Shown here piece after piece: positions 14,388 to 23,213 of a stretch of 64,000 nt of DNA; the stretch's first letter is position 1; each line of letters opens with the position of its first letter. This DNA comes from Neorhizobium sp. SHOUNA12A (GTDB lineage: Bacteria; Pseudomonadota; Alphaproteobacteria; Rhizobiales; Rhizobiaceae), in the NCBI RefSeq assembly GCF_023006505.1, contig NZ_JALBGV010000011.1, positions 1-64,000 of the forward strand. The letters run 5' to 3'. Both the position numbers and the translations under genes were made by a program. The notes under the pieces are model-generated. The model did not search any database. It was not told where the DNA came from and saw only the letters and a program-made list of their open reading frames with translations.

Positions 14388-14397
14388 GGAGCGGACC

Positions 14398-15195
14398 ATG
14401 AACGCCTATCTGAAGCTCGACCATATCGACAAACATTTTGACCGCGGCGGCAATCGTGCCGAAGTTCTGAAGGATATCAACCTGACGATCTCCAAGGCCG
14501 AGTTCGTTTCGATCATCGGCCATTCCGGCTGCGGCAAGTCCACGCTCCTCAACCTCATCGCCGGTCTGACGCCCGTCTCGGCAGGTGCTGTCCTGCTCGA
14601 AAATCGTGAGGTCAACGCACCGGGGCCGGAACGCGCCGTCGTTTTCCAGAACCATTCGCTGCTGCCCTGGCTGACGGTCTACGAAAACGTCAACCTCGCC
14701 GTCTCAAAGGTCTTCGGCCGCACCAAGAGCCGGACCGAACGGCACGAATGGGTCATGGCCAATCTGGACCTCGTGCAGATGGCCCATGCCAAGGACAAGC
14801 GCCCATCCGAGATTTCGGGCGGCATGAAGCAGCGCGTCGGCATTGCCCGGGCACTCGCCATGGAACCGAAGATCCTGCTGCTCGACGAGCCCTTCGGCGC
14901 GCTGGACGCGCTGACTCGTGCCCACCTGCAGGACGCGGTCATGGAGATCCATTCGCGGCTCGGCAACACGATGGTGATGATCACCCACGATGTCGACGAG
15001 GCAGTACTGCTTTCCGACCGCATCGTGATGATGACCAACGGCCCGGCCGCCAAGATCGGCGAGGTGCTCGACGTGCCGATCCCCCGGCCGCGCAACCGCA
15101 TCGAGCTTGCTTCCGACCGTACGTATCTCAAGTGCCGCGAGGCAGTGCTGAAATTCCTCTACGAACGCCACCGCTTCGTTGAAGCCGCGGAGTAA
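14398..15195 (+). CDS. nrtC: Nitrate ABC transporter ATP-binding protein
   Basis: A 265-residue ABC ATPase with Walker A in GHSGCGKSTLLNL, Q-loop in VVFQNHSLLPWLTV, signature EISGGMKQRVGIARAL, Walker B in ILLLDEPFGALDA and the H-loop in VMITHDVDEAV. It has only the ATPase domain; the cyanobacterial NrtC fusion to a binding domain is absent, so it corresponds to NrtD in cyanobacterial naming. GAGGAGCG lies just upstream of the ATG at 14398. An in-frame upstream start inside nrtB was rejected. Confidence 0.9.
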   Translation: MNAYLKLDHIDKHFDRGGNRAEVLKDINLTISKAEFVSIIGHSGCGKSTLLNLIAGLTPVSAGAVLLENREVNAPGPERAVVFQNHSLLPWLTVYENVNLAVSKVFGRTKSRTERHEWVMANLDLVQMAHAKDKRPSEISGGMKQRVGIARALAMEPKILLLDEPFGALDALTRAHLQDAVMEIHSRLGNTMVMITHDVDEAVLLSDRIVMMTNGPAAKIGEVLDVPIPRPRNRIELASDRTYLKCREAVLKFLYERHRFVEAAE

Positions 15196-15200
15196 AAACC

Positions 15201-17651
15201 ATGACAGAAAAACTCATCATCATCGGCAATGGCATGGCGCCGGGACGCATGCTGGAACACCTCTTCGAACAGGCGCCCGGCCGCTACGACGTCACGATCT
15301 TCAACGCCGAACCACGCGTCAACTACGACCGCATCATGCTCTCGCCGGTGCTTTCCGGCGAAAAGAGCTTCGAGCAGATCGTCATCCATGGCGACGGCTG
15401 GTACATCGACCACGGCATCACGCTCTACAAGGGCCACAAGATCGTCGCGATCGACCGGGCGGCGAAGACCGTTACCTCCGATCACGGCGTCACTGAAAGC
15501 TACGACAAGCTGGTGATCGCCACCGGCTCGGTGCCGTTCATCATCCCGGTACCGGGCAAGGACCTGCCGGGCGTCATCACTTATCGCGACCTCGACGACG
15601 TCCAGGCCATGCTTCTCGCCGCCCAGTCGCGCGAAAAGGCGATCGTCATCGGCGGCGGTCTGCTCGGTCTCGAAGCGGCAGCCGGTCTTGCCCAGCGCGG
15701 CATGGACGTGACCGTGCTGCACGTGATGCCGACGCTGATGGAGCGCCAGCTCGATCCGGCCGCCGGTTACCTGCTGCAGAAGGCCGTCGAAGAACGCGGC
15801 ATCAAGGTGATCTGCAAGGCCAATACCAAACAGATCATCGGCAATGGCAAGGTCGAGGGCGTCGAACTCGACAACGGCACGATCATCCCGGCGACGCTGG
15901 TGGTCATGGCCGTCGGCATCCGCCCGAGCGCCGGCCTCGCCAAGCAAGCAGGCCTTGCGGTCAATCGCGGCATCGTCGTCGATGCGGGAATGCAGACGTC
16001 TGACGGCGACATCTATTCCATCGGCGAATGCGCCGAAGTGGGCGGCATGGTCTATGGTCTCGTCGCACCGCTCTACGAAATGGCCCGCATCGCGGCATCG
16101 CATCTGGCAGGCGATACGAAGCCGGCTTTCGTGCATTCCGACACGCCCACCAAACTCAAGGTCACCGGCATCGACCTCTATTCGCTCGGCGACTTCGCCG
16201 ACGGTGACGATCGGCAGGAAATCGTGCTGCGCGATGCTACCGCCGGCATCTACAAGCGCCTCGTCCTGAAGGACAACCGCATCATCGGCACGGTTCTTTA
16301 CGGCGAGACCTCAGACGGCGCCTGGTTCAACGACCTGAAGAAGAAGGCGACCGATATCACGGAGATGCGCGATACGCTGATCTTCGGCCAGGCCTACCAG
16401 GGAGGGTCCCCGCTGGACCCTATGGCGGCCGTTGCAGCCTTGCCGGATGATGCGGAAATCTGCGGCTGCAACGGCGTCTGCAAGGGCAAGATCACCTCGA
16501 CCATTACCGCCAAGGGCCTGACATCGCTCGACGACGTGCGCGCCCACACCAAGGCTTCCGCCTCCTGCGGCACCTGCACCGGCCTCGTCGAACAGCTGAT
16601 GGCTCTGACGCTTGGCGACGCCTACAATCCTAAGGCTGTGCAGCCGATGTGCACCTGCACCGAACTTGGCCACGACGACGTCCGCCGCCTGATCAAGGCG
16701 AAGGGCCTGAAGACCATCCCCGCGGTCATGCAGGAACTGGAATGGAAGACCTCCTGCGGCTGCGCTAAATGCCGCCCGGCGCTCAACTATTACCTCGTCT
16801 GCGACTGGCCGGATGAATATGCCGACGATTACCAGTCGCGCTACATCAACGAACGCGTCCACGCCAATATCCAGAAGGACGGCACCTATTCCGTCGTGCC
16901 GCGGATGTGGGGCGGCGTCACCAACTCGAACGAACTGCGCGCCATCGCAGACGTCGTCGACAAGTTCGAGATCCCGATGGTGAAGGTCACCGGCGGCCAG
17001 CGCATCGACCTTCTCGGCATCGAGAAGGAAGACCTGCCTGCCGTCTGGGCCGATCTGGGCAAGGCCGGCTTCATCTCCGGCCAGGCCTATGCCAAGGGCC
17101 TGCGCACGGTGAAGACCTGCGTCGGCTCCGATTGGTGCCGCTTCGGCACGCAGGATTCGACCGGCCTCGGCATCCGCATCGAGAAATTCATGTGGGGCTC
17201 CTGGACACCGGCCAAGCTGAAAATGGCGGTCTCCGGGTGTCCGCGCAACTGTGCGGAAGCGACCTGCAAGGACATCGGCGTCATCTGCGTGGACTCGGGC
17301 TTCGAGATCCATTTCGCCGGCGCCGCAGGCCTCGACATCAAGGGCACCGAAGTGCTCGGACTGGTGAAGACCGAGGACGAGGCGCTCGAATACATCGTCG
17401 CACTTACGCAGATGTACCGCGAACAGGGTCGTTATCTCGAGCGCATCTACAAATGGGCGAAGCGCATCGGCCTCGACGAAATCCGCCGGCAGATCATGAC
17501 CGATACGGAGAAGCGCGAGGCCTACTACGAGCGTTTCGTCTTCTCCCAGAAATTCGCCCAGGTCGACCCGTGGTCGGAGCGTGTCTCCGGCAAGGACAAA
17601 CACGAGTTCCGGCCGATGGCGACAGTCGGTTACTCGCATGCAGCCGAGTGA
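15201..17651 (+). CDS. nirB: NADH-dependent nitrite reductase large subunit
   Basis: An 816-residue assimilatory nitrite reductase that reduces nitrite to ammonium. Order of domains: FAD/NAD-binding reductase (LIIIGNGMAPGRML near the start and VIGGGLLGLEAAAGLAQRG near residue 150), a BFD-like [2Fe-2S] domain with CGCNGVCKG near residue 420, a second cysteine-rich segment CGCAKCRPALNYY near residue 520, then the ferredoxin-like and siroheme/[4Fe-4S] domains with TCVGSDWC and SGCPRNCAEATC. It starts 5 bp after nrtC. Siroheme would be supplied with the help of CysG at the end of the operon. Confidence 0.95.
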   Translation: MTEKLIIIGNGMAPGRMLEHLFEQAPGRYDVTIFNAEPRVNYDRIMLSPVLSGEKSFEQIVIHGDGWYIDHGITLYKGHKIVAIDRAAKTVTSDHGVTESYDKLVIATGSVPFIIPVPGKDLPGVITYRDLDDVQAMLLAAQSREKAIVIGGGLLGLEAAAGLAQRGMDVTVLHVMPTLMERQLDPAAGYLLQKAVEERGIKVICKANTKQIIGNGKVEGVELDNGTIIPATLVVMAVGIRPSAGLAKQAGLAVNRGIVVDAGMQTSDGDIYSIGECAEVGGMVYGLVAPLYEMARIAASHLAGDTKPAFVHSDTPTKLKVTGIDLYSLGDFADGDDRQEIVLRDATAGIYKRLVLKDNRIIGTVLYGETSDGAWFNDLKKKATDITEMRDTLIFGQAYQGGSPLDPMAAVAALPDDAEICGCNGVCKGKITSTITAKGLTSLDDVRAHTKASASCGTCTGLVEQLMALTLGDAYNPKAVQPMCTCTELGHDDVRRLIKAKGLKTIPAVMQELEWKTSCGCAKCRPALNYYLVCDWPDEYADDYQSRYINERVHANIQKDGTYSVVPRMWGGVTNSNELRAIADVVDKFEIPMVKVTGGQRIDLLGIEKEDLPAVWADLGKAGFISGQAYAKGLRTVKTCVGSDWCRFGTQDSTGLGIRIEKFMWGSWTPAKLKMAVSGCPRNCAEATCKDIGVICVDSGFEIHFAGAAGLDIKGTEVLGLVKTEDEALEYIVALTQMYREQGRYLERIYKWAKRIGLDEIRRQIMTDTEKREAYYERFVFSQKFAQVDPWSERVSGKDKHEFRPMATVGYSHAAE

Positions 17652-17661
17652 GGAGATGGAC

Positions 17662-17991
17662 ATGAACTGGATCGCAATCGGCAAGCTGACCGACATTCCG
17701 CTCCGCGGCGCGCGCTGCGTGAAGACGCCCCAAGGCAAGATCGGCGTGTTCCGCACCGCCGAAAACCAGGTCTTCGCCATCGAAGATCATTGCCCTCACA
17801 AGGGTGGACCGCTCAGCCAGGGCATCGTGCACGGCACTTCGGTGACGTGTCCGCTGCACAACTGGGTGATTTCGCTCGAAACCGGCAAGGCGCTCGGCGC
17901 TGACGAAGGCTCAGTCCGGACCATCCGGCTCGAACTGCGCGGCGAAGACATCTTCATGGCACTCGAAGAACAGTTGGCCGCAGCCGAATAA
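17662..17991 (+). CDS. nirD: Nitrite reductase small subunit
   Basis: A 109-residue Rieske-fold protein, the small subunit of the NADH nitrite reductase. It keeps the Rieske cluster ligands (CPHKGGPL and CPLHNW), whereas many NirD proteins have lost them, so it may carry a [2Fe-2S] centre. GAGGAG at 17650-17655 supports the ATG at 17662. It begins 10 bp after nirB. Confidence 0.92.
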   Translation: MNWIAIGKLTDIPLRGARCVKTPQGKIGVFRTAENQVFAIEDHCPHKGGPLSQGIVHGTSVTCPLHNWVISLETGKALGADEGSVRTIRLELRGEDIFMALEEQLAAAE

Positions 17992-18039: not shown

Positions 18040-18891
18040 ATGTCCTATGTCACACCAACGGAATTCGTGACGAAGATGATCGACGCCGGCGAGGCGAAGA
18101 TCTTCATGTCCACGCGCGACACCCTGATCCGGGCTTTCATGGCGGGCGCAATCCTTGCGCTTTCCGCCGCCTTCGCCGTCACCATCACGGTGCAGACCGG
18201 CAACGCTCTCGCCGGTGGCATCCTCTTCCCGGTCGGCTTCTGCCTTCTCTACCTCATGGGCTTCGATCTCCTGACGGGCGTCTTCACGCTTACACCGCTC
18301 GCCCTGATCGACAAGCGGCCGGGTGTGACCGCCAGCGGCGTGATGCGCAACTGGACGCTCGTCTTCGTCGGCAATTTCGCCGGCGCCTTCCTTGTTGCGG
18401 TGATGATGGCGATCATCTTCACCTTCGGCTTCAGCGAGGCACCAAACGAAGTCGGCCAGAGGATCGGTCATATCGGCGAAGGCCGCACGCTCGGTTATGC
18501 GGCGCACGGCGCGGCGGGCATGCTGACGCTCTTCGTCCGCGGCGTTCTCTGCAACTGGATGGTTTCGACCGGCGTCGTCGCGGCGATGATGTCGACCTCG
18601 GTGTCCGGCAAGGTCATCGGCATGTGGATGCCGATCATGCTGTTCTTCTACATGGGTTTCGAACATTCCATCGTGAACATGTTCCTGTTCCCTTCCGGCC
18701 TGCTGCTGGGCGGCAAGTTCTCGTTCATGGATTACATGATCTGGAACGAAATCCCGACCGTCATCGGCAATCTTGTCGGCGGCCTCACCTTCGTCGGCCT
18801 CACCCTCTATTCGACCCACGGCCGCAAGAAGAGCAAGCAGAGCGTTCCGGCTGGCCATATCGGCAATCCTGCCGGCGTTCCGGCGGAGTGA
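18040..18891 (+). CDS. nirC: Formate/nitrite transporter family protein, probably nitrite
   Basis: A 283-residue FNT-family channel with six hydrophobic segments. Conserved features are the N-terminal helix near MIDAGEAKIFM, a signature near GVLCNWMVSTGVVAAMM and the pore histidine in MGFEHSIVNMF. Its place between nirD and nasA argues for nitrite rather than formate, for uptake or for relief of nitrite build-up. AGGGAGACGAG lies ahead of the ATG. Confidence 0.88.
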   Translation: MSYVTPTEFVTKMIDAGEAKIFMSTRDTLIRAFMAGAILALSAAFAVTITVQTGNALAGGILFPVGFCLLYLMGFDLLTGVFTLTPLALIDKRPGVTASGVMRNWTLVFVGNFAGAFLVAVMMAIIFTFGFSEAPNEVGQRIGHIGEGRTLGYAAHGAAGMLTLFVRGVLCNWMVSTGVVAAMMSTSVSGKVIGMWMPIMLFFYMGFEHSIVNMFLFPSGLLLGGKFSFMDYMIWNEIPTVIGNLVGGLTFVGLTLYSTHGRKKSKQSVPAGHIGNPAGVPAE

Positions 18892-18895
18892 ACCG

Positions 18896-21754
18896 ATGGG
18901 GGCGGGCCTTCTGGAAACGGAAATGCAGGCGGGTGGAAACACCACCAGGACGACCTGCCCCTATTGCGGCGTCGGCTGCGGCGTCATCGCCACAGTGGCG
19001 GACAACGGCGCCGTGACGGTCAAAGGCGATCCCGAGCATCCGGCCAATTTCGGCCGGCTCTGTTCCAAGGGATCGGCGCTCGCCGAAACCATCGATCTCG
19101 ATGGGCGTGTCCTCGTCCCCGAGATCCTCGGCCGGCAGACGGATTGGGATGAGGCGCTCGATCTCGTCGCCGAAAGGTTCTCGAAGACTATTGCGGAACA
19201 CGGGCCGGATTCGGTTGCCTTCTACGTCTCCGGCCAATTGCTGACCGAAGATTATTACGTTGCCAACAAGCTGATGAAGGGCTTCATCGGCTCGGCAAAT
19301 ATCGACACCAATTCCAGGCTTTGCATGTCTTCGTCCGTCGCCGGCCACCGCCGCGCTTTCGGATCCGATACCGTTCCCGGCACCTATGAGGATATCGAAC
19401 TCGCCGATCTGGTCATCCTCACCGGCTCCAACCTCGCCTGGTGTCACCCGGTGATCTATCAGCGGCTCGCAGCAGCCAAGACCGCGCGGCCGGGCATGAA
19501 GATCGTCGTCATCGATCCGCGCCGGACGATGACCTGCGACATTGCCGACCTGCATCTGGGCATCCGGCCGGATGGCGACGTGGCGCTGTTCATGGGCCTG
19601 CTCGCCCACCTGGCGCAAAGCCCGGTGATCGACCAGAACTATATCGCCGCGCATACGCAAGGTTTTGGCGAAGCCTTTGCCGCCGCGGCCACGCTTTCCT
19701 TCACGGAACTGATGGAGCGAACCGGCCTGCCCGCGATGCAGCTTCGCGAGTTCTTTCACCTGTTCGAGACGACGGAAAAGGTCGTCACCTGTTATAGTCA
19801 GGGTGTCAACCAGTCGGCGTCGGGGACGGACAAGGTCAACGCCATCATCAACTGCCATCTGGCGACGGGCCGCATCGGCCGGCCGGGCACGGGACCGTTT
19901 TCGCTGACCGGCCAGCCGAATGCCATGGGTGGCCGCGAGGTCGGCGGTCTCGCCAACATGCTCGCCGCCCATATGGCGATCGAAAGCGCGGACGATCGGG
20001 ACCGCGTGCAGCGTTTCTGGGCCTCGCCTAGGATTGCCGAAAAGCCGGGCCTGAAGGCCGTCGACATGTTCCGCGCCGTCGCCGATGGGCGGATCAAGGC
20101 GCTGTGGATCATGGCCACCAATCCGGTGGTGTCGATGCCGGATGCCGATGCGGTCGAGGCTGCCATCAAAGCCTGTCCTTTCGTGGTGGTCTCCGACATT
20201 CTTCGGGACACCGATACGGCCCGCCACGCGCATGTCCTGCTGCCTTCGGTCGGCTGGGGCGAGAAGGACGGCACCGTCACCAATTCGGAACGCCGCATCT
20301 CCCGCCAGCGCTGGTTTCTGTCCGCCCCCGGTGAAGCCAAAGCCGATTGGTGGCAGATGGCAGAGGTCGGCAAGCGCATGGGCTCTGACGGCTTCGATTA
20401 TAAATCTGCGGCCGAAATCTTCGCCGAACATGCCGCACTTTCGGCCTTCGAGAACGAGGGCAGCCGGGATTTCGATATCGGAGCGTGTGTCGAAATCGGC
20501 GAAGAGGGATACGATGCACTGACGCCGTTCCAATGGCCTGCTCCGCTGGGAGATACCCCCCTCTGGCCTGCCGGCCATCTCCCCCTCAAGGGGGGAGATC
20601 ACAAGCGGCAGGATCGTCGCTTCCAAAGAAACGAGACGGCCTGCTCGACGGATGATTTTGGACAAAGAGTTGGCGCCCAGCCGATCTCCCCCCTTGAGGG
20701 GGAGATGGCCGGCAGGCCAGAGGGGGGTAGCGACAAGCGCTTCTTCGCCGATGGCGGCTTCTATCACCCAGATCGTAGGGCACGTTTCATCGCCGTCCAG
20801 GCGCCGGCCACCGACCGCACCAATGAACAATACCCGCTGACGCTGAATACCGGCCGCATCCGCGATCACTGGCACACGATGACGCGAACGGCGAAAAGTG
20901 CCAGGCTTTCCGGCCATATCGCCGAGCCCTTTGCGGAACTCCATCCGCGCGATGCGATGGAACTCGGCATTCGCGGCGCCGGCCTGGTCGAACTCGAAAG
21001 CCCCCACGGCAAGGCAATCGTCCGGGCGCTGGTCACCGAACGCCAGGCCCGTGGAAACGTCTTCGTGCCGATGCACTGGAACGACCAGTTCGCCGCAAAG
21101 GCGCGCATCGATACGCTGGTCGCACCCGTCACCGACCCGTTTTCCGGTCAACCGGCGTCGAAGAACATAGGGATCGCCGCCCGGCCGTTCGCCGCTTGCC
21201 TCTACGGCTTTGCCGTTTCCGCCTCGAAACCCCTGAACCCCCAGGCGGATTACTGGGCGCTCGCCAAGACCGATGGCGGCTGGCGGATCGAGCTCGCGTT
21301 CGCGGACCCGGTCGAGGACTGGGTGACCTGGTGCCGGGGAGCATTCGGCATCCCGGCCGAGATCGAGCCGCTCGGTTATGCCGACCATCAGTCCGGCGAT
21401 CTGCGCCTCGCCTTTTTCGAGGGCGGAAAGCTGCTCGCAGCTCTTTTCCTGGCGAACGAGCCGGTCGCCGTCGCACGCAACTGGGCAATCGGCCAACTTG
21501 CCGCCGAACATTCCGACCTGCGCAAGCGCTTTGCGATCGTTGCCGGACGGCCCGGGGCCGACCAGCCCGATCCCGGCGCCACCGTCTGCTCCTGCTTTTC
21601 GGTCGGCGTCAACCGGATCATCGGCGCCGTGCGAGGCGGCTGCCACAGCGTCGAGGCCGTCGGAAAAGCAACCAATGCCGGCACCAATTGCGGCTCCTGC
21701 CGCGCTGAAATCAGGGGGATCATCGATGGATGTCTTGCAGCAGCCGCGGAATGA
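18896..21754 (+). CDS. nasA: Assimilatory nitrate reductase catalytic subunit with inserted palindrome
   Basis: A 952-residue molybdopterin guanine dinucleotide oxidoreductase that reduces nitrate to nitrite. An N-terminal [4Fe-4S] motif (CPYCGVGCGV, then LCSKGSAL) is followed by the Mo-bisMGD domains (LTGSNLAWCHP, QGVNQSASGTDKVNAI, GRIGRPGTGPFSLTGQPNAMGGREVGG). The C terminus carries a BFD-like [2Fe-2S] domain (VCSCFSVG and NCGSCRAE), typical of NAD(P)H- or ferredoxin-linked NasA. Codons about 553-611 come from a 176-bp palindromic element inserted without a frameshift; removing it restores GDSDKRFFADGGFYHPD, a normal-looking NasA segment. The ATG at 18896 follows the nirC stop by 4 bp. The gene overlaps cysG by 29 bp. 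Confidence 0.93.
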   Translation: MGAGLLETEMQAGGNTTRTTCPYCGVGCGVIATVADNGAVTVKGDPEHPANFGRLCSKGSALAETIDLDGRVLVPEILGRQTDWDEALDLVAERFSKTIAEHGPDSVAFYVSGQLLTEDYYVANKLMKGFIGSANIDTNSRLCMSSSVAGHRRAFGSDTVPGTYEDIELADLVILTGSNLAWCHPVIYQRLAAAKTARPGMKIVVIDPRRTMTCDIADLHLGIRPDGDVALFMGLLAHLAQSPVIDQNYIAAHTQGFGEAFAAAATLSFTELMERTGLPAMQLREFFHLFETTEKVVTCYSQGVNQSASGTDKVNAIINCHLATGRIGRPGTGPFSLTGQPNAMGGREVGGLANMLAAHMAIESADDRDRVQRFWASPRIAEKPGLKAVDMFRAVADGRIKALWIMATNPVVSMPDADAVEAAIKACPFVVVSDILRDTDTARHAHVLLPSVGWGEKDGTVTNSERRISRQRWFLSAPGEAKADWWQMAEVGKRMGSDGFDYKSAAEIFAEHAALSAFENEGSRDFDIGACVEIGEEGYDALTPFQWPAPLGDTPLWPAGHLPLKGGDHKRQDRRFQRNETACSTDDFGQRVGAQPISPLEGEMAGRPEGGSDKRFFADGGFYHPDRRARFIAVQAPATDRTNEQYPLTLNTGRIRDHWHTMTRTAKSARLSGHIAEPFAELHPRDAMELGIRGAGLVELESPHGKAIVRALVTERQARGNVFVPMHWNDQFAAKARIDTLVAPVTDPFSGQPASKNIGIAARPFAACLYGFAVSASKPLNPQADYWALAKTDGGWRIELAFADPVEDWVTWCRGAFGIPAEIEPLGYADHQSGDLRLAFFEGGKLLAALFLANEPVAVARNWAIGQLAAEHSDLRKRFAIVAGRPGADQPDPGATVCSCFSVGVNRIIGAVRGGCHSVEAVGKATNAGTNCGSCRAEIRGIIDGCLAAAAE
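20554..20729. mobile_element. RIME-type miniature palindromic element inside nasA
   Basis: A 176-bp element whose ends, 20554-20600 and 20683-20729, are 47-bp perfect inverted repeats. Each repeat itself contains two palindromes (TGGCC/GGCCA and CTCCCCC/GGGGGAG). Both outer ends carry TA, consistent with a TA target duplication. Counting one TA as duplicated host sequence, the net insertion is 174 bp, exactly 58 codons, which explains why nasA stays in frame. There is no transposase gene. It resembles Rhizobium RIME sequences, and the translation (LWPAGHLPLKGGD and ISPLEGEMAGRPEGG) is a phrase I recall from rhizobial proteins carrying such repeats. Confidence 0.88.
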
Positions 21755-23213
21755 AGCATCTCCTGATCGTGGTGCCCGCATGGCGCCGCTTGCGAAGCTC
21801 CCGGTCTTCTGGGCGCTCGAAGGCAGGCCCGTCATCGTTGCCGGTGGGTCGGATGCGGCTGCCTGGAAAGCCGAGCTGCTTGCCGCCTGCGGCGCCAATG
21901 TGCATGTCTATGCGGATAGACTGTCCGAGACCTTCGAAAAGCTGATCGAACGCGGGGCGGAACATCCGCAGGGCCGCTTTATTCATCATCTAAACGTGTG
22001 GGACGCTTCGATTTTCGAGGTCGCAACGATCGCGATTGCGATTGCGGATTGCGACGATGAGGACGAGGCGCAGGCGTTTTTCAATGCTGCCCGCGCGGCG
22101 GGCGTGCCGGTCAATGTCATCGACAAACCCGCCTTCTGCCAGTTCCAGTTCGGTTCGATCGTCAACCGCTCGCCGGTCGTCGTATCCATCTCGACCGATG
22201 GCGCGGCGCCGATCCTGGCGCAGGCGATCCGCCGCCGTATCGAAACCCTGCTGCCAGCCTCGTTGAAAAGCTGGGCGGAACTCGCCCAATCGCTCAGGGA
22301 AAAGATCAACGACCGCCTGGCGCCCGGCCCGCAGCGAAGGGCCTTCTGGGAACGTTTCGTGGACCGCGCCTTCGGCAGCGAACCGGGATCGGGCAGCGAA
22401 GCCGCTATCTTCGCCGATGCCGGCCGCGTCGCATCCTCGACCCAGAAGGGCCGTGTCACCCTTGTCGGCGCCGGCCCCGGCGATGCCGAACTTCTGACGC
22501 TGAAGGCGGTGCGTGCGCTGCAGGCGGCCGACGTCATCCTGTTCGACGATCTCGTCTCCGACGAGGTGCTGGAGCTCGCACGCCGCGAGGCGAAACGCAT
22601 GCTGGTCGGAAAACGCGGTGGCCGGGTAAGCTGCCGCCAGGAAGACATCAACGACATGCTGGTGAAGTTCGCCAAGGCGGGCAAACGCGTCGTCCGCCTG
22701 AAGTCCGGCGATCCGATGGTCTTTGGCCGTGCCGGCGAAGAGATCGCCTGCCTGGAACGAGAAGGCATCCCCGTCGACGTGGTGCCGGGCATCACTTCGG
22801 CGAGCGCCATGGCATCGCGGCTCGGCGTGTCGCTGACCCATCGCGACCATGCGCAGGGCGTTCGTTTCGTCACCGGCCATTCGCGCAAGGGCGTGCTGCC
22901 GGACAATCTGGACTGGAAAAGCCTCGCCGATCCGAAGACCACGACCATCTATTACATGGCGGGACGCACGGCGGGAGAGATCGTCAGCAAGCTGACAGAC
23001 GCCGGCATGACGCCCGACATGCCGGTGGTGATCGTCAGCGCGGTGACCCGGCCGAACGAGCGGCGTTGGGCCGGACGGCTGAGCGACATGGCTGCGGCCA
23101 TGGCAGAGATCGGTATCGACGAACCCGTGCTGATCGGCATCGGCCACGTATTTCGCAAGGTCGATTTCGGCGACTGCACGCAGTGGAACGACCAGGCCGC
23201 AGCAAGCGCCTGA
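21726..23213 (+). CDS. cysG: Siroheme synthase, fused dehydrogenase and methyltransferase
   Basis: A 495-residue bifunctional protein. Residues about 20-220 are the precorrin-2 dehydrogenase/ferrochelatase-type domain (KLPVFWALEGRPVIVAGG, then NVIDKPAFCQFQFGSIVNRSP). Residues about 240-490 are the SAM-dependent uroporphyrinogen III methyltransferase (VTLVGAGPGDAELLTLKA, RLKSGDPMVFGRAGEE, VVPGITSASAMA). It makes siroheme, the cofactor of NirB, which explains its place at the end of the operon. AGGGGG at 21712-21717 precedes the ATG at 21726, within the nasA 3' end. A terminator follows at 23219-23242. Confidence 0.92.
   Translation: MDVLQQPRNEASPDRGARMAPLAKLPVFWALEGRPVIVAGGSDAAAWKAELLAACGANVHVYADRLSETFEKLIERGAEHPQGRFIHHLNVWDASIFEVATIAIAIADCDDEDEAQAFFNAARAAGVPVNVIDKPAFCQFQFGSIVNRSPVVVSISTDGAAPILAQAIRRRIETLLPASLKSWAELAQSLREKINDRLAPGPQRRAFWERFVDRAFGSEPGSGSEAAIFADAGRVASSTQKGRVTLVGAGPGDAELLTLKAVRALQAADVILFDDLVSDEVLELARREAKRMLVGKRGGRVSCRQEDINDMLVKFAKAGKRVVRLKSGDPMVFGRAGEEIACLEREGIPVDVVPGITSASAMASRLGVSLTHRDHAQGVRFVTGHSRKGVLPDNLDWKSLADPKTTTIYYMAGRTAGEIVSKLTDAGMTPDMPVVIVSAVTRPNERRWAGRLSDMAAAMAEIGIDEPVLIGIGHVFRKVDFGDCTQWNDQAAASA

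Follow-up and report, generated by a model that had tools for sequence, protein, structure and literature searches.

The palindromic element within nasA

The window analysed here comprises the first 64,000 nucleotides of contig NZ_JALBGV010000011.1 of Neorhizobium sp. SHOUNA12A. It contains nasA, the gene for the catalytic subunit of an assimilatory nitrate reductase, and within this gene lies a 176-bp palindromic element that is read in frame. The parts of the element are as follows.

20554..20729, + strand: palindromic element, 176 bp; net insertion of 174 bp = 58 codons = NasA residues 554-611
20554..20600, + strand: left arm, 47-bp perfect inverted repeat; translation (D)TPLWPAGHLPLKGGD
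20601..20682, + strand: element centre, between the two arms
20683..20729, + strand: right arm, 47 bp; translation ISPLEGEMAGRPEGG

The 47-bp arms pair perfectly from both ends of the element, and no further arm copy was found in the 64-kb window when up to 3 mismatches were allowed. With terminal inverted repeats, a size below about 500 bp and no transposase, for which 176 bp would be too short, the element has the form of a miniature inverted-repeat transposable element (MITE), and the original prediction of a miniature palindromic element is supported. The 58 codons contain no stop, and removal of the 174 bp in silico rejoined the frame as predicted, giving an 894-aa frame that reads GDSDKRFFADGG. 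The very strong potential mRNA hairpin that had been expected was also obtained, as the RNA of the element folded with a minimum free energy of -149 kcal/mol (z = -13.3), and 0 of 200 shuffles folded equally well. Six Rfam microRNA matches over the element (E up to 1) were all below their gathering scores and were taken as hairpin artefacts.

The host gene, its domains on both sides of the insert and the neighbouring genes are listed below.

18896..21754, + strand: nasA, assimilatory nitrate reductase catalytic subunit; 952 aa with the insert, frame open throughout
19136..20377, + strand: NasA molybdopterin oxidoreductase domain PF00384, upstream of the insert, ending at residue 494
20837..21166, + strand: NasA molydopterin dinucleotide-binding domain PF01568, downstream of the insert, starting at residue 648
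14389..17991, + strand: nitrate ABC transporter ATPase, NirB and NirD
18040..18891, + strand: formate/nitrite-family transporter (NCBIfam match below cut-off)
21780..23213, + strand: siroheme synthase CysG

The 952-aa frame contains Fe4S4, molybdopterin, dinucleotide-binding and BFD-like [2Fe-2S] domains. As its best NCBIfam matches, the formate dehydrogenase alpha, NasC and NasA models, were all below cut-off, the name nasA was assigned from the domains and the neighbouring genes. The nitrate and nitrite genes around nasA are intact. Since the element sits between two Pfam domains, it is plausible that the insert would form a surface loop. PDB alignments of NasA skip this linker, and a PDB search with an insert-like peptide gave no match. 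On the minus strand, a 1032-aa open frame (window positions 18800-21898) runs opposite nasA and passes through the element; it was taken as a by-product of the GC-rich sequence.

Distribution of the element in genomes and protein genes

In the genome of the same strain, a draft of 6.56 Mb in 217 contigs, blastn returned at least 111 matching pieces of the element, counting both orientations and with 40 of 82 candidates scored. The arm matched 79 times with at most 3 mismatches, while the backward control matched 0 times, and 31 two-armed copies were recovered from the fetched loci. The abundance of the element in its own genome is far above chance, as for a dispersed, high-copy repeat. The genome search proposed with the original prediction, including a list of copies inside open reading frames, showed at least four of the 31 copies in frame in conserved, unrelated protein genes, namely NasA, RibD, CobN, and FtsY. 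Own-genome frames at L002, L011, L013, L015, L017, L018, L022, and L172 were left out of this count. The possibility that the insert was a lone oddity in one gene was discarded, given full elements in other NasA genes and the in-frame copies in RibD, CobN, and FtsY.

The element is poor in stop codons. In the 27 own-genome copies outside the four genes, whose intergenic status was not shown copy by copy, a mean of 2.52 of 6 frames was open, compared with 1.43 after mononucleotide shuffling. The element was also present in 178 records of rhizobial and related plasmids. Among the best 60 plasmid places (one per record), 51 had no listed gene beneath them, the gene table being incomplete, and 9 were in unannotated records. 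The centre of the window copy matched other own-genome copies best (33-34 of 84 bases, 82-85%, among the set compared), and not the NasA inserts of other species. A very heavy load was seen in the genus g50, where an element-containing query gave 539 first-look candidates in G105 (4.9 Mb) and 489 in G196 (3.7 Mb), of which 150 each were scored.

The TA noted at both ends of the window copy is present, but its reading as a target-site duplication was not supported. The ends could be scored in 26 of the 31 copies, and identical flanking dinucleotides occurred in 5 of these (3 TA and 2 CG), all self-complementary. Reverse-complementary flanks were found in 7 of the 26, including those 5, whereas CA...CA or TG...TG flanks were found in none of the 26. 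The flanking dinucleotides were mainly pyrimidine-purine (22 on the 5' side and 23 on the 3' side). As few flanks were identical, all of these were self-complementary and none was CA...CA or TG...TG, the TA is more readily understood as the terminus of the inverted repeat; a duplication of two bases was neither demonstrated nor excluded. A TA target duplication, and with it an IS630-type mover, was accordingly not supported by these flanks.

To compare the insertion site among relatives, the linker was read in 120 NasA loci, of which three were duplicates (L140, L024, and L137) and one (L109) had no anchor because of a contig end. A full in-frame element in the same linker was found in 12 distinct NasA genes. 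Eleven of them belong to the window genome, X. oryzae/G017, M. temperatum (L035), Mesorhizobium sp. (L039), G279, G373, G323, G230, G259, G394, and G356, and the twelfth, in G105, was added from 6 genomes of genus g50. Four of these 6 genomes carried the full element, while G312 had a short, remnant-like linker and G196 a different insert. The original prediction thus understated the case, which is more than one isolated event, since 12 distinct NasA genes and other genes of the window genome are occupied. Besides these carriers, G045 is a further likely one, as two of its contigs end within the two arms in nasA (L193 and L194); draft assemblies may thus hide such inserts. In the G373 gene (L136), whose linker has 121 residues, a similar nested element with a further inner repeat lies in frame within the NasA insert; an extra repeat-like stretch stands beside the element in G279 (L134), and the insert in the G196 linker (L292) is of another kind.

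Clear remnants, defined by at least 13 shared bases with 0 of 100 same-gene control windows as good, were found in L115, L041, and L063/L137. Shorter matches in L110, L113, and L114 were equalled by 9, 3, and 11 of 100 controls and are not safely distinct from chance, and L059, with 10 bases in common with the arm and 0 of 100 controls, fell below the 13-base limit and was not counted. A pattern search matched 11 of 394 family genomes (8 full elements, 1 remnant, 1 unclear case, L135, and 1 locus that is not NasA, L144); as exact bases were required, this search undercounts.

The insertion state was then placed on a NasA tree of 79 rows, built by a quick method with the linker excluded and 37 rows under bit score 1120 left out. 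A separate alignment, A1, comprised 44 of 51 intended sequences. Parsimony gave a minimum of 9 changes, on a tree in which gain and loss are indistinguishable. For the insert-free group, 8 changes were forced by well-supported branches. The shuffled mean was 13.1; thus, the carriers are clustered. At least one of the full elements, the X. oryzae copy, lies in the orientation opposite to the window copy and still reads through, which fits a separate insertion.

The comparison of NasA homologs over the linker, which had been suggested as a check, showed that the insert is not common to all close homologs. None of the nearest relatives read has a full element, including L106, which is 97% identical. 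The linker counts 13 and 14 residues in the two nearest relatives and 10 in L112, and in the window gene it would count 8 once the element is removed. Because its arms are perfect, the nearest relatives have no full element and its centre is nearest to own-genome copies, the window copy appears to have been inserted in this lineage specifically, at an inter-domain linker that is variable.

RibD, CobN, and FtsY were each searched in 57 genus genomes. The insert-containing queries and the choice of best-scoring loci bias the following counts toward carriers: both arms were in frame in 11 of 30 loci for RibD and 26 of 30 for FtsY, where the right arm was filled in 30 of 30, and both were present in 8 of 20 for CobN. 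In the 27 unfetched genomes, many FtsY matches begin only at about residue 190, so these genomes may lack the insert. In FtsY, which is usually essential, the element precedes the SRP54 helical-bundle domain, and in CobN it is near the N-terminus. The closest matches to the insert centres of RibD and FtsY were the orthologous inserts in genus mates (88% and 80%, respectively), and the same held for the first part of the CobN insert (94% over 66 bases). Since these centres are closest to orthologous inserts, the inserts in RibD, FtsY, and CobN have been inherited through speciation. The CobN insert also contains a nested 121-base segment identical to another own-genome copy. This segment belongs to a second palindromic element, whose arm contains CATATG, seen at about 1495-1805 of L148 (own CobN) and about 1530-1845 of L185 (own C139). 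The second element sits, nested, inside the first one's arm loop, its flanks resemble a 7- to 8-base duplication by eye, and it is also in frame in CobN; a plasmid search with it gave no match.

In genus g50, 20 stretches were selected for an element in a long open frame, and 8 of them had a spanning frame. By Pfam, the element was between or inside domains in 2 of the 8, upstream of a domain in 3, and in a frame with no domain in 3. Only the first 2 were counted as in-gene, as the other frames may be read-through. In L318 and L327 (G356 and G394), the element is in frame at nearly the same place, with left parts of 505 and 508 residues, in proteins with transglycosylase, transpeptidase, and BiPBP_C domains, the domain set of penicillin-binding protein 1C.

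Substitution patterns in host proteins, arms and centres

Selection on NasA was estimated outside the linker. Between the window gene and L106, dN was 0.0143 and dS 0.174, giving an omega (dN/dS) of 0.082; omega was 0.075 to 0.123 against five other relatives and 0.062 to 0.108 in three pairs of relatives without the full insert. NasA is thus under purifying selection outside the linker. Inside the inserts of four carrier pairs, dN/dS was 0.62 to 1.08, while the remainder of NasA gave 0.14 to 0.20. The enzyme is therefore kept while the insert drifts, almost neutrally as a peptide. With its open frame, intact neighbours and low omega, the gene is by its sequence no pseudogene, a state that would have contradicted the original prediction.

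The arms behaved differently from the centres. In FtsY, the proportion of synonymous differences (pS) was about 0.10 in the arms, with nonsynonymous values (pN) of 0.10-0.14 (pair means, 15-16 codons each), compared with a pS of 0.60 and 0.62 in the flanks, 0.45 in the GTPase part and 0.63 in the centre. Arm pairing in FtsY was at least 0.84 in 26 of 29 cases and lower in L238, L239, and L251 (with Ns). The RibD arms had a pS of 0.04 and 0.10. In NasA, group means were 0.03 to 0.13 for the arms, compared with 0.37-0.38 for the centres and 0.35-0.36 for third positions, the latter from a rough ungapped comparison. The same pattern was obtained for an orthologous copy outside the four genes, at the L002 site, where 11 carriers gave 0.06-0.07 for the arms, 0.35 for the centre and 0.11-0.12 for the flanks. 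Thus, arm stability is not tied to a coding role.

Moreover, two facing bases within the arms were complementary in 53 of 56 arms at the FtsY loci, 25 of 25 at the RibD loci and 69 of 71 at own-genome loci, compared with 53%, 78%, and 40%, respectively, expected from base frequencies; these counts include other copies in the same loci and are inflated by related copies. In the FtsY gene of G016 (L247), the arms are of a divergent type whose facing pair is A-T, as if both bases had changed in place. Within 1 mismatch, this arm type occurs once in that genome (8 genomes were checked), which in this one case argues against simple copying, in which the FtsY arms would follow the other copies of their own genome. 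In some close FtsY pairs, the centres differ by about 0.4 through indels or centre replacement, which speaks against a simple account.

Interpretation and comparison with known systems

In our view, the insert is most probably one copy of a rhizobial mobile element that is non-autonomous, forms a hairpin and can be tolerated by the proteins into which it inserts (probability about 0.84). The element would move, or have moved, by a putative transposase, and insertions that break the frame or the fold would be purged, so that the survivors would lie mostly in linkers. In NasA, the element would be translated as a flexible loop and the enzyme would retain its activity. What keeps the arms near-identical could be copying from one copy to another, repair by fold-back or selection for the hairpin, in each case regardless of the protein. 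The host protein stays under purifying selection, and partial copies remain as in-frame scars.

Several points weigh against this interpretation. That the element is tolerated is judged from survivors only. The excess of open frames was measured against a mononucleotide shuffle, and the carrier counts for RibD, FtsY, and CobN favour carriers by design. The RibD copy is located within the C-terminal Pfam domain and not in an inter-domain linker. The omega of the window branch averages the time before and after the insertion. It is uncertain how many of the NasA insertions were independent, as losses with scars could lower the count, and the flipped centre of the X. oryzae copy could come from an inversion between the arms. 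No clear target duplication was seen among the 26 scorable copies. Finally, the original prediction would have been refuted if all close homologs shared the insert and had no TA-flanked empty site; they do not all share it, but an exact TA empty site was found in none of the relatives read.

One alternative is recruitment of the insert, in which its peptide or its mRNA hairpin would now be useful to NasA in regulation or partner binding. The repeated occupation of the same NasA linker, the arms nearly unchanged at silent sites and their complementary facing bases (53/56 at the FtsY loci and 25/25 at the RibD loci) would agree with this. Recruitment is nevertheless improbable, because the nearest relatives read do without the full insert, dN/dS within inserts reaches 0.62-1.08, and a copy outside the four genes has equally stable arms and a drifting centre. 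Inactivation of NasA, leaving a young pseudogene, might be expected of a catalytic enzyme burdened with 58 extra residues and a hairpin of -149 kcal/mol. However, with a frame open throughout, intact neighbours, an omega against L106 like that of the three pairs without the full insert, and other species keeping the insert in frame, inactivation is very improbable. Least probable of all, with hardly any chance, is removal of the element from the product by RNA processing or by ribosomal bypass of the hairpin. A perfect hairpin would be a natural substrate for such a process, and the available part of PMC6649704 mentions that palindromes in yeast mitochondrial genes are bypassed during translation. 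Under bypassing, though, in-gene copies would need neither to be in frame nor to be free of stops, as they are; since the reading frames were chosen as open, broken copies could have been missed.

The original observation holds, and beyond it the hairpin repeat family is translation-compatible, occurs in conserved proteins of several rhizobial genera, recurs in one NasA linker and has its arms kept. A further proposition, which we advance tentatively and at somewhat less than even odds, is that mobile hairpins are long-term residents of rhizobial protein genes (at least 26 of 57 genomes of one genus for FtsY), with arms maintained at the nucleic-acid level by conversion, fold-back repair or hairpin selection, independent of how the protein is read. 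If this were true, the same selfish palindrome would repeatedly lengthen proteins, with favoured landing linkers such as that of NasA.

RIME, Rhizobium-specific intergenic mosaic elements, are palindromic repeats of rhizobia, reportedly described by Osteras in 1995 in a paper whose title is said to name the S. meliloti chvG-chvI system. No match to the element was found at E 1e-3 in a 49-kb chvG-chvI stretch of one strain, S. meliloti Ak57. An identity with RIME was hence not supported, as judged from this one stretch and not from RIME sequences. Among the papers listed in the literature searches, with most subscription papers outside their reach, none was seen to describe the element in rhizobial proteins.

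Among MITEs, the rhizobial element shares terminal inverted repeats, small size, lack of a transposase and high copy number, whereas its arms are 47 bp long with facing complementary bases, and no target duplication or parent insertion sequence was shown. According to the part of a MITE review that was available (PMC10969869, 2024), it is not unusual in itself for intragenic MITEs to form in-frame fusions, Rickettsia stands out by an unusually high frequency of them, and for prokaryotes beyond Rickettsia a comparable route of protein evolution is called "conceivable". Some copies of QMITE of Coxiella burnetii are likewise in frame in open reading frames, but in the available part of PMC5896051 these are at gene ends or in hypothetical proteins, while the rhizobial element is inside conserved enzymes and FtsY.

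The closest behaviour is that of the Rickettsia palindromic elements (RPE), short palindromic elements in frame in unrelated, still intact protein genes (Ogata et al. 2000, 2002, as cited in the part of PMC10969869 available). The rhizobial family resembles them in this respect, a likeness of behaviour with no sequence kinship shown. Its hosts, in contrast, are large-genome Rhizobiaceae; the NasA relatives are rhizobial, and the insert of L024 (X. oryzae) is the same as that of its genus mate G017. In rhizobia, a stop-poor palindrome lengthens NasA, the vitamin and cofactor enzymes RibD and CobN, and FtsY, and as the hosts are large-genome rhizobia and not Rickettsia, the effect of the inserts on proteins and mRNAs is testable. 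RPE lose their repeat identity over time, as far as the available part of PMC6649704 describes them, whereas the rhizobial arms stay near-identical, as the arm pS in FtsY shows against 0.45-0.63 elsewhere in the gene. Arms that stay stable around drifting centres raise the question of how palindromes persist in genes.

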